A stretch of DNA of 64,000 nucleotides from Candidatus Gastranaerophilales bacterium (GTDB lineage: Bacteria > Cyanobacteriota > Vampirovibrionia > Gastranaerophilales > Gastranaerophilaceae), in assembly GCA_944325515.1 (NCBI GenBank), contig CALVAO010000005.1:1-64000 (forward strand), read 5' to 3'. The notes under the pieces are model-generated. The model worked only from the letters and a program-made list of their open reading frames with translations. It had not been told where the DNA came from and searched no databases. The translations under genes and the position numbers were made by a program. Numbering within the stretch: position 1 is the stretch's first letter; every line of letters starts with the position of its first letter. This document shows positions 1,857 through 41,663 of this stretch, piece after piece.

Positions 1857-1992
1857 TGGTTTGTCCTTTCTTTATTTTGGTTATATTGAATGTAACTTAA
1901 TACATATTCTGTTACATTAGGTTTTTGTTTTTTAGGGTTTTTAGGGTGTGTATTGGCTTTCACCTTTTTTATTTACTCCTTTATTTACCCCT

Positions 1993-2037
1993 GTTCTTTT
2001 CTTTCTCTTTTGCGCATCAAAAGAGAAAGAAAAGAAC
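1993..2037. repeat. Perfect 20-bp hairpin
   Basis: Bases 1993-2012 are exactly the reverse complement of 2018-2037, around a 5-base loop CGCAT. The arms are purine-only or pyrimidine-only (GTTCTTTTCTTTCTCTTTTG). It lies inside the palindrome-bounded cassette. It could terminate transcription in either direction or be part of the element's structure. Confidence 0.85.
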
Positions 2038-2219
2038 GAAAAGAAAGAGAAAATAGCGGTTGTTTTCTATGCCCTTGCGGGCATTGGGGCTAATTTGGCG
2101 TTTGCCTCCGAGGCTGGACCGGCAAGCCGGTTCTCTTACGCTCGCTATTGGTGCTTACGCACCACGCTCGCGGTGTGCGCCTTGTTTTATCTTGCTTCTA
2201 TCTTGCAAGTCCCGCGTCT

Positions 2220-2257
2220 TCCCTCTCCACGGGGGAGGGTTAGGGTGGGGGCTGGTT
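2220..2257 (+). repeat. GC-rich REP-like dispersed repeat, copy A
   Basis: This copy begins CCCTCTCCACGGGGGAGGG and continues into a G-rich tail (TTAGGGTGGGGGCTGG). It shares with three other sites in the window the plan CCCTCTCC, short loop, GGAGAGGG, CTGGGG. Its G/C-rich composition contrasts with the surrounding genome. Confidence 0.65.
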
Positions 2258-2367
2258 TTTCTTTGCCTGTTTTAGAGCCAAATTGCACTCCTTTCATATC
2301 TTTTACCCCCAATGTAACAGAATATGTATTGTGTTACATTAGGAAATCGGTATCTTACTTAGTTTCT

Positions 2368-23204: not shown

Positions 23205-23915
23205 ATGAGAGAAAAGAGAGGCTTTACCTTAGCAGAAGTATTAATTACTCTGGGAATTATTGGTGTCGTTGCCGCACTAACTGCCCCGGCACTGGTTCAG
23301 AATGCAGGTACCGCTAAAATTGGTCCAACATTATCTAAAGTTGTTGCAACACTTGAGAACGCAAACGAACAAATGCTTCATGACAATGAGGCAACTAATA
23401 TAGCAAAAATTGCCGAGACTGAGTTAGAATACATGGAACTCTTATCAAAACAGATTCAAGGCAGTTCATATGAGTCTACCAAGATTGGTTCCGGCTCTTA
23501 TAAAACAACGTATTATGAGTATGACGGTACTACCGCACAAATATACGGATATGTATTCCACTTCGCTGATGGAATAGATCTTGTATATAATGATGTAGAA
23601 TCATATGTCAACGGAAATTATAGTTCTTATTCCCCAAAAGGAACTTTTAAAGGACCTTATTGTACTATATGGGTTGATGTAAATGGCTTTAATACTAAAC
23701 CAAATAGAAGCGGCAAAGATCGTTTTCTGTTTGTTCAAGATAAAGGCGGTTCTGTAATACCGAGCGGCGGACAAACTTCTGCCTGGTTGAACGATGAAGA
23801 GCAAGCCGGATACCTTGGAGAAGGTAACGCTGCTTGTAATGAAAATAAAGTCGGAACGGGTAACGGATGTGCAGGTTCTATCTTTGATAATAATATGAAG
23901 GTAATATATCAATAA
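23205..23915 (+). CDS. Type IV pilin/pseudopilin-like protein
   Basis: The protein has a class III (prepilin) leader MREKRG cleaved before FTLAEVLITLGIIGVVAALT. Phe+1 and Glu+5 are present, followed by the hydrophobic helix. The globular part (~180 residues) ends in a conserved ACNENKVGTGNGCAGSIFDN segment with two cysteines that could form a disulfide. Several in-frame ATGs exist from 23190; 23205 is chosen because AAAGGA lies six bases upstream and the short leader matches the paralogue at 38259-38996. The pilus/T2SS machinery is encoded just downstream on the other strand. It may be a minor pilin or pseudopilin. Confidence 0.85.
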   Translation: MREKRGFTLAEVLITLGIIGVVAALTAPALVQNAGTAKIGPTLSKVVATLENANEQMLHDNEATNIAKIAETELEYMELLSKQIQGSSYESTKIGSGSYKTTYYEYDGTTAQIYGYVFHFADGIDLVYNDVESYVNGNYSSYSPKGTFKGPYCTIWVDVNGFNTKPNRSGKDRFLFVQDKGGSVIPSGGQTSAWLNDEEQAGYLGEGNAACNENKVGTGNGCAGSIFDNNMKVIYQ

Positions 23916-38996: not shown

Positions 38997-39022
38997 ATTT
39001 TTGCTCTCCTATTTAAGTTTCT

Positions 39023-39343
39023 AATGTAACACAATAGGTATTGTGTTACATTGAGAGTGCATTTTGGGGCGGTCATTAAGTAATAGTGCTTGTTTTAAAG
39101 TTTTATAAATTAAAAAAATTTTCGAATAATTTAAAAGATATAACCAAAACGCTCAAATACAGATTAACACTAGAAAACAACCTGTATTTATAAATTCTTT
39201 TAACAATCACCCCACCCCAGCCCTCCCCGTCCAAGGAGGGCGTTTGCGCCATATTTAATGTTGAATTTCAAATTTAAGTTGCAAAACCCCTGTAAAATAT
39301 GATATTATAACACAATGTAACACAATACCTATTGTGTTACATT
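39023..39343. mobile_element. 321-bp cassette bounded by 30-bp palindromic sites
   Basis: Each end is a 14-base arm AATGTAACACAATA and its perfect reverse complement around a 2-base core. The core is GG at the left site and CC at the right, making the two sites exact reverse complements of each other. Both are followed by GAGAGT on their right side. The inside is AT-rich apart from one GC-rich REP-like copy. The arms match those at 1889-1918 and 2311-2340. It lies directly upstream of a pseudopilin gene. It could be an invertible segment, a MITE or a pair of operators. Confidence 0.55.
39208..39242 (-). repeat. GC-rich REP-like dispersed repeat, copy C
   Basis: On the leftward strand it reads CGCCCTCCTTGGACGGGGAG, then GGCTGGGGTGGGG. 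It has the same stem and CTGGGG tail as copies A, B and D, and lies inside the cassette at 39023-39343. Confidence 0.6.
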
Positions 39344-39617
39344 GAGAGTTAAAATCTCACTATTTTTTGCTCGTTATACAAGAATCACAAGATGGGGTGG
39401 ACATTTTAATCCAACCCATCAATAACTTTATTTAGATATTAAGTTTTCAGAAAAAATATTTCTTGAAGTTTTGCTACATGATGAACTGTAATACTTAATT
39501 TAATAGTTTTTATTCCAATATCAAAAAGCTAACCACTTGTATAAATTAGACCATTACTTGATTTATATATTTATCATCCTTTAGTTGTTTATATGATTAA
39601 AATTAAGCAAATTTACA

Positions 39618-39647
39618 TTGACAGAGCGGTAAATAGTAACATATAAT
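39618..39647 (+). promoter_or_regulatory. Consensus sigma-70 promoter driving a leaderless helicase gene
   Basis: Perfect TTGACA (39618-39623), 18-bp spacer, perfect TATAAT (39642-39647). The ATG begins seven bases after the -10 ends, at the expected transcription start. Confidence 0.8.
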
Positions 39648-39653
39648 CAGTCT

Positions 39654-41663
39654 ATGGAAAGATTTGATTTTTCTAATCCAACTGAAACACTAAAAACGCT
39701 GACTTCTGAAAATATAAACTACAGGGATTTGCAAGAAACGGCTGAGAAACTTATGTCGTCGCTTTCTGCTATGCATGTAAATCAAGACGGAAGAAGATAT
39801 CAGTCAATAACACAATGCATACTTGATTGTTTGAAAAGAATCTACGGGTTTAAATCAGCCGAATGGATTTCTGAAAACAAGTTAACTTATGAACTTAAAT
39901 TAGGAGAAAAACCTATAAGCTTTAAGCGGATTAATTCTAATCAAGAACTCTGCTTGTACAACATTGTAAATTTTGACCAGATAGATTTTTCAAAAGAAAT
40001 TGAATATGCTGATGAATACGAAGTTATAAAACATGCAACACCGCAAATAAAACATGAAGAAGAAAATGATAACACCTTTTCTAATGTTTTAACTTTGCTG
40101 CAAAATGGTGAAAATGTATTTTTAACAGGTTTTGCTGGAACAGGAAAAAGTTACATTCTAAATAAATTAAAAGAAAAACTAAAGAAAAAACTTACAATTA
40201 CAAGTACAACAGGTATTGCTGCTGTAAATGTAAAAGGGCAGACTCTTCATTCCTGGGCGGGAGTCGGACTTTGCAGAAATACGATATCTAACACAGTTGA
40301 AAAAATCAGAGGTCGTAAAACCCAGCTTAATCAGATTTTGAAATGTAAAATTCTTGCAGTTGATGAGATTTCAATGCTTAATATTGAGGCTTTTGAATAC
40401 ATAAATGAGGTTTTGAAAGCTTTAAGAGAGAATGACAAACCTTTTGGCGGAATACAGGTTCTTTTTATTGGTGATTTTTTTCAGCTTCCTCCTGTTGAAA
40501 ATAATACAGAGAGTTCTCTGGCTGCAGAACGGCGATATTGTTTTGATTCTCCTCTATGGGAAGAATTTAATTTGAAAAATGTTATCTTAAAAAAGAATTA
40601 TCGCCAAAATGAAGAAAATTTTATAACAGCGCTTGCGCATATGAGAGAAAATTGTCTTGACGCGGCTGATATTAAACTACTAAATGGAAGATGTACAGAT
40701 CTTGACACTTATGAAACAGATATACTACACATATTCTCTACAAATGAAGAAGCTAACAGGTATAACAATATAAAATTTAATATGATAGAAGAACCTATCC
40801 GAATTTTTACTGCTGAAGACGGTGTATACAGAGGTACTAAACTTGTATCAGAAAACTTAACCGAAAGTGAAAATTATATTCTTGAAATCTTTTCAAAAAA
40901 CTGCCGTGCAGAAAAAGATATTCCTCTCAAGCTCGGAGCAAAGGTCATGCTTCTTATAAATATGGATTTTAATAAAGGGCTGATAAACGGAGCATGCGGA
41001 TTTATCCAGCAGTTTTATGAAAACAGTATAGAAATAAAATTTGATAATGGTGTGACAGCATCAATTCCGCGTCATAAATTTGAATATTATTATAATGACA
41101 GGGTTGTAGCAGAAAGAATGCAGTATCCGCTTAGACTGGCATACGGAATAACAATACACAAATCACAGGGAATGACTTTAGATAAGCTTGTTGTAGATTG
41201 TTCGAGAATTTTTGAAAGAGGACAGGCATATGTTGCCATGAGCCGCGTTAAGACTTTAGACGGATTGTTTATTAAAAACTTTGAGCCGCAAAAAGTGCTG
41301 GTAGATTCCAGAGTAGCAGATTTTTACGAAAAGCTGGAAGAAACAAAAAATGTTGAATTAGTCAGTAAACCATTAGAAGATACAGGGAAATTCACCGGAA
41401 ACGCGGAAGAAACTGTTTTGGACTGTATAAAAGAATTCAGCGGTTTATACGGCAAAAGCGGATTTTGTAAAATTTTAACAGGCAGCAGGCAGATAAAAGC
41501 AAACGGCTATAATGATAATGTTGTCGGTTCAGAATATTTTGGGGCTTTAGAAGGATACAGCCAGAAGGCGGTTGGAGACATTATAGAAGAACTGGCAGCG
41601 GATAATAAAATTGAAATAAAAAAGATAAGCTTTGGACGTCCGGTTTTGTGTGCAAAAAACTAG
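39654..41663 (+). CDS. PIF1-type SF1B helicase with C-terminal RQC-like winged helix
   Basis: The 669-residue protein has a ~145-residue N-terminal domain, then the helicase core. Walker A is GFAGTGKS (159-166), Walker B is LAVDEIS (to 240). FIGDFFQLPPV, the KNYRQNEENF motif and the late AYGITIHKSQGMTLD, with YVAMSRV, follow. The C-terminal ~85 residues (SGLYGKSGFCKILTGSRQIK, then EGYSQKAVGDII) resemble the RQC winged-helix of RecQ. PIF1-like enzymes unwind DNA 5' to 3', including G-quadruplexes and R-loops. The gene stands alone with a strong consensus promoter and appears leaderless. Confidence 0.85.
   Translation: MERFDFSNPTETLKTLTSENINYRDLQETAEKLMSSLSAMHVNQDGRRYQSITQCILDCLKRIYGFKSAEWISENKLTYELKLGEKPISFKRINSNQELCLYNIVNFDQIDFSKEIEYADEYEVIKHATPQIKHEEENDNTFSNVLTLLQNGENVFLTGFAGTGKSYILNKLKEKLKKKLTITSTTGIAAVNVKGQTLHSWAGVGLCRNTISNTVEKIRGRKTQLNQILKCKILAVDEISMLNIEAFEYINEVLKALRENDKPFGGIQVLFIGDFFQLPPVENNTESSLAAERRYCFDSPLWEEFNLKNVILKKNYRQNEENFITALAHMRENCLDAADIKLLNGRCTDLDTYETDILHIFSTNEEANRYNNIKFNMIEEPIRIFTAEDGVYRGTKLVSENLTESENYILEIFSKNCRAEKDIPLKLGAKVMLLINMDFNKGLINGACGFIQQFYENSIEIKFDNGVTASIPRHKFEYYYNDRVVAERMQYPLRLAYGITIHKSQGMTLDKLVVDCSRIFERGQAYVAMSRVKTLDGLFIKNFEPQKVLVDSRVADFYEKLEETKNVELVSKPLEDTGKFTGNAEETVLDCIKEFSGLYGKSGFCKILTGSRQIKANGYNDNVVGSEYFGALEGYSQKAVGDIIEELAADNKIEIKKISFGRPVLCAKN

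Follow-up and report, generated by a model that had tools for sequence, protein, structure and literature searches.

The window, i.e. the whole 64,000-nt stretch of DNA analysed here, belongs to a Gastranaerophilales genome of 2.1 Mb in 34 contigs (G000) and carries four palindromes arranged as two inverted pairs (Table 1). The right-hand pair lies between a prepilin-like gene and a PIF1-like helicase gene, and its spacing of 291-292 bp is the same as that of the C16 and C3 pairs of G000. The ATG of the pilin gene (38996) is 26 bp from the left site and has an AGGAG ribosome site (39006-39010). On the other side, the helicase gene has its own promoter and therefore need not depend on a switch in the element. 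No terminator was found in the window element, and its interior gave no Rfam match to a structural RNA. In helicase-anchored relatives, neither the pilin gene nor the sites were found upstream, where synteny is lost, and the window element was found in no second genome. For the second element, no promoter was found at either end of the interior.

Table 1. Features of the two palindrome-bounded elements of the window and of their neighbouring genes
Feature	Position	Strand	Remark
Gene of unknown family, ~455 aa	489..1856	-	Starts 33 bp from second element; possible target
Left site of second element, core ACAT	1889..1918		Sequence
Interior of second element	1919..2310		130-bp repeat core at 2058-2186
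Right site of second element, core ATGT	2311..2340		Sequence; inverted match
Prepilin-like gene, 245 aa	38259..38996	-	Predicted switch target; N_methyl and prepilin-type cleavage domain matches
Left recombination site, AATGTAACACAAT-AGGT-ATTGTGTTACATT	39023..39052		Sequence; member of a family of ~31 sites
Putative invertible segment, 261 bp	39053..39313		Between inverted sites; inversion seen in sister elements
Putative outward promoter, TTGCAA-18-TATTAT	39279..39308	+	Ends just before right site; same position in sister elements
Right recombination site, core ACCT	39314..39343		Sequence; exact reverse complement of left site
Perfect sigma-70-like promoter of the helicase gene	39618..39647	+	Sequence
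PIF1-like helicase gene	39654..41663	+	Other side of element; probably not target

A sequence-only reading of the window had described the sites at 39023 and 39314 as exact reverse complements with 14-bp arms around a GG or CC core, and the sequence bears this out. For the pair at 1889 and 2311, it had proposed the same arms around CA and TG. These cores are indeed inverted, but the arms of this pair are not all identical to those of the other sites: AC is replaced by TT or AG in some.

The AATGTAACNNAATANNTATTNNGTTACATT pattern has four matches in the window versus none across 100 dinucleotide shuffles, and 23 exact matches across G000 versus none for the backwards control. When as many as three mismatches to a single full 30-mer are allowed, G000 contains about 31 copies, the backwards control again giving 0. 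Almost all of them form inverted pairs (16 pairs) with spacings of 291-292, 392-422, 1150 or 1283 bp, the unpaired ones being a decayed copy (C4:5455) and copies at contig ends. Genome-wide, the arm is thus found in sites that are nearly always paired and not in isolated single palindromes, and the segments are bounded by inverted repeats as those of invertons are. Pairing with a strict score yielded 42 pairs over seven genomes. The two copies of a pair have an identical core in inverted orientation in 39 of these 42 pairs, and the core varies among elements: ACAT and ACCT are the commonest, and ACGT, ACTA, ACCC and others occur once each. The architecture is best described as a core of 4 bp between a 13-bp arm AATGTAACACAAT and its inverted copy. 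The consensus is matched by 89% of the interior-facing arms versus 44% of the outward-facing ones, as expected if inner arms move with the interior and outer arms remain with the flank.

Other features of the sites were also observed. At L006 (C1) and L015 (C10), the 12 and 13 bases just inside the left site (AGGGGCTTAGTT and AGAAAATAAATTT) are the same as those just outside the right one, and in the window element GAGAGT (6 bp, 39053-39058) is repeated in the same arrangement at 39344-39349. Simple inversion does not explain these direct repeats. Half-degenerate extra sites (TAGCACCACAATATGTATT..) are located 113 bp outside some invertons of G007, G060 and G073 (L243, L244, L245, L246, L255 and L269) and are repeated twice in places. 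In G007, G060, G067 and G073, many sites seem to be no more than a few hundred bases away from a contig end, which is what mixed orientations or repeats would be expected to produce in an assembly.

The sequence-only reading had also proposed that inverted pairs flip the DNA that they enclose. Comparisons of genomes and of loci support this for sister elements of the window pair. Between G060:C3:30567 and G073:C56:98, the left flank is 100% identical over 127 bp and the right flank 98.8% identical over 934 bp, and the 294-bp interior, 99.3% identical, is in opposite orientation. The outer arms have variants (ATGTAACTTAAT for the left side; ATGTAACATAAT or AGGTAACATAAT for the right side) that keep to their flanks when the interior is turned around, and this places the exchange within the central AAT-ACAT-ATT. 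Within the right flank, these two loci differ in the first 15-27 bases, which probably reflects conversion from the leader of another pilin. Likewise, the 371-bp interiors of G060:C14 and G073:C224 are 99.7% identical and adjoin, in reversed orientation, a flank whose homology extends over 1.5 kb. Within G000, C7 and C8b share flanks (96.8% identity over 434 bp and 100% over 254 bp) around an interior that is 96.6% identical and inverted. Both orientations therefore exist between genomes as well as between duplicated loci, and this supports the view that the palindromes are recombination sites of inverting segments.

A strict sigma-70-like promoter (TTGNNN-17/18-TANNNT, directed outward and commonly 6-7 bp from the site) is present at one end in 19 of the 42 pairs and at both ends in none, versus about one in all for shuffled ends. 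Hence, as a sequence match, these segments contain the outward promoter expected of an inverton. No recognisable promoter was found in five of the 16 pairs of G000, among which is the element at 1889. A prepilin gene starts within 300 bp and faces outward at 20 of the 42 pairs (on both sides in seven), the control for the prepilin motif giving 0 in 480 kb of strand. Pilin-type genes, already suspected as targets from the window alone, are therefore the main neighbours of the sites. Other putative targets encode unknown proteins (489-1856 of the window and the C4 duplicates). Two divergent prepilin genes are located on either side of the cassette at C3, C16 and C19, so that inversion would swap one for the other.

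Some of the neighbouring genes have an unusual organization. For instance, a gene adjoining an inverton at L011:1975-3000 (G000:C7:13374-14399), found also at the C8 end and at the C15 start, encodes a protein with a prepilin N-terminus and, after it, YadA-head repeats, an unusual pilin-like/trimeric-adhesin combination. The divergent paralogs of L020 (G000:C19:13956-17118) and L009 (G000:C4:160602-164581) are identical in their 5' parts and vary in the middle or at the end, as if segments had been swapped between the two inverted genes. Divergent paralogs around a cassette could trade segments in this way (mosaic genes at C19 and C4b) and diversify the surface. In addition, a small ORF (L020:2182-2523) within the 1283-bp inverton of C19 has a product that seems to resemble DUF559-type endonucleases.

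In the window element, the putative promoter points away from the pilin gene, which would thus be OFF in the assembly. Flipping of the segment would set this promoter ahead of the AGGAG and of the pilin ATG. According to a model based on the window leader and on a junction of the C7 type, the ON-state transcript would have the palindrome as a leader hairpin.

With PF00589, ten proteins of G000 were detected as tyrosine recombinases, and six have about 182-190 aa. One of these, a 183-aa protein, is encoded by a one-copy gene in a conserved locus (G000:C10:41736-42284). It matches Phage_integrase and, when aligned to XerA, has the R..HxxR..H..Y residues; both the profile and these residues are those of tyrosine recombinases. 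A search of the PDB returned only Xer-type and integrase relatives. Orthologs (at least 75% identity, one being partial) are found in 14 of the 65 genomes of the genus, all 14 of which have at least two sites. At least six sites are present in 13 genomes with the ortholog and absent from one, versus one and 50 for the ortholog-free genomes (p=1.2e-11, a value that ignores shared ancestry); six ortholog-free genomes have 2-6 sites. The loci of the closest recombinase relatives belong to MAGs that bear the label Candidatus Gastranaerophilales or Melainabacteria, which assigns the window to this group. The 183-aa clade is monophyletic (100/100), and the same 434-aa gene is located upstream in 12 of the 12 members examined. 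Furthermore, distant relatives (41-58% identity) are encoded inside elements that have matched-core palindromic ends of the same kind, in G008 (decayed), G009, G014, G043, G059, G074 and a Lachnospiraceae genome, which connects enzymes and sites at the level of families. Co-occurrence and this location inside like-ended elements thus support small tyrosine recombinases as the enzymes associated with the sites. In G000, the gene of the 183-aa recombinase adjoins none of the sites, and its product is likely to be the enzyme that flips the cassettes, acting in trans.

Alternatively, the inversions would be real but made by another small tyrosine recombinase of G000, of which there are five (C16:562, C27:34, C9:16751, C8:23564 and C26:14031). 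These proteins belong to the same family as the 183-aa enzyme, and a palindrome at the contig start of C16 lies some 0.5 kb away from the C16:562 gene. However, their relatives are present in many site-free genomes, other inverted repeats are found near some of them (C8, C26, and C16 with TTCTATACAC repeats) and the distribution of the sites is tracked by the 183-aa clade only. This attribution therefore seems unlikely.

Repeats of other types were noticed near small tyrosine recombinase genes. A second family has inverted repeats (GCACCATTTTATTAAAAATGATGCA-like) just upstream of the gene (L037:1223-1251 and 1382-1410, i.e. G000:C8:23325-23353 and 23484-23512; also L107 and L117), which are possibly its own switch. 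Palindromes TTCTATACACA..TGTGTATAGAA are found near a third subgroup (L102:1314 and L116:2840).

Many of the ~400-bp cassettes have in common a 130-bp interior core, with 13 near-full-length copies, 11 of which are inside pairs; this repetition indicates that the cassettes have multiplied. They are thus repeated short elements with terminal inverted repeats, as MITEs are, and the palindromes could be the terminal repeats of a small transposon, opposite orientations resulting from independent insertions. The sequence-only reading had named MITE ends as an alternative, and its part concerning a repeated interior and the spread of cassettes stands. Independent insertion does not, since identical flanks around inverted interiors of 96-99% identity would require two insertions at one base; moreover, neither a target-site duplication at the outer ends nor a cognate transposase with such ends was found. 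We thus consider it quite improbable that these elements are simply MITEs. Spreading and inversion are compatible with each other, and one may speculate that the near-symmetry of the site permits rare excision and reintegration.

The serine recombinase with a 2-bp crossover core that had been proposed from the window is still harder to reconcile with the data. Four proteins of G000 match PF00239, two of which have the size of invertases. However, the matched core varies over at least 4 bp and not 2, the enzymes tied to the sites and contained in like-ended elements are small tyrosine recombinases, and PF00239 matches are not associated with the sites: no such match was found in G012, which does have sites, whereas most site-free genomes have one. 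This enzyme class was rejected as very improbable. Paired operators of a regulator, also put forward earlier, would suit strongly palindromic sites located upstream of genes but would explain neither inverted interiors between identical flanks, nor element-specific matched cores, nor recombinase genes inside pairs, and they can hardly be what the palindromes are.

Our preferred reading, to which we give a probability of about 0.85, is that the palindrome pairs are invertons flipped by a small tyrosine recombinase and that they switch mostly prepilin-like surface proteins. The enzyme would bind the 13-bp inverted arms, and strand exchange in the short core between them would flip the segment. 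In many cassettes, inversion would shift the outward promoter between the two flanking genes, or away from the sole one, leading to ON/OFF or A/B switching of mostly prepilin-like surface proteins. The 183-aa recombinase would act in trans on about 16 dispersed cassettes. We infer the identity of the enzyme, promoter function, the flipping of the window element itself and the ON/OFF effect. It is very likely, judging from the sequences, that this bacterium turns surface proteins on and off by promoter flipping.

As for its history, the system is likely to have begun as a self-inverting recombinase element, from which a trans-acting enzyme at a fixed locus and dispersed cassettes arose. A more specific scenario is tentative, and we would rather bet against it than for it: the self-inverting element would have given rise both to a domesticated master recombinase acting in trans and to a mobile, non-autonomous promoter cassette, whose spreading would have placed pairs of prepilin genes under one inversion regime. 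In this scenario, the variable but pair-matched core could hold each cassette to recombination with itself. The relatives form a series in which the recombinase is encoded within the element at one extreme and at a fixed locus, with its cassettes dispersed, at the other; this series suggests how inversion systems with several loci may arise.

Gastranaerophilales, which are related to cyanobacteria, are common in the gut and mostly uncultured and, to our knowledge, their surface biology is hardly known. If true, a genome-wide network of prepilin phase variation would be a main route of surface variation in this group. No report of inversion systems in Gastranaerophilales was found in the freely accessible literature searched.

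Various known systems resemble the one proposed here. In the E. coli fim switch, tyrosine recombinases of about 200 aa (FimB/FimE) act on a promoter segment of about 300 bp ahead of fimbrial genes. The sizes of the recombinase and of the promoter segment are similar here. However, the 183-aa recombinase is not adjacent, many loci are concerned and the targets are of the type IV prepilin kind. Furthermore, this protein matches the NCBIfam model of tyrosine-type DNA invertases (NF007371) weakly, at 49.7 bits, below the cut-off of 222, and is therefore not assigned to the FimB/FimE-type invertases.

Piv of Moraxella is an IS110-type enzyme. As cited in PMC5903667 (reference 19 there), DNA inversion in this system switches the expression of type IV pilin. 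Genes of the type IV pilin kind are thus affected by inversion in both cases, but in Moraxella the pilin genes themselves are inverted, whereas here a promoter cassette would flip between genes.

In Clostridioides difficile, one small tyrosine recombinase, RecV, inverts several dispersed segments located upstream of surface or motility genes (PMC5903667, PMC5386303), and the inverted repeats are mostly unrelated to one another (PMC5903667). A single small tyrosine recombinase would likewise act on several dispersed segments here but, unlike those of RecV, these share a single family of palindromes and a repeated interior cassette, used at about 16 loci, most of which have prepilin genes. In Bacteroides fragilis, Tsr19 (BF2766) and Mpi are single recombinases that invert distant promoters, Mpi being a serine enzyme that acts on 13 regions (PMC4747536). 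Inversion of distant promoters by one recombinase is common to these systems and to ours. They differ in recombinase sequences, in host phylum and in their targets, which are capsule and outer-membrane genes, whereas here a tyrosine-class enzyme would serve many loci, and some cassettes have divergent pilin genes on both sides. Hence, the cassette system is a variant of the known promoter-inversion systems governed by a master recombinase, new in its palindrome family with repeated cassettes, its prepilin targets and its host group.
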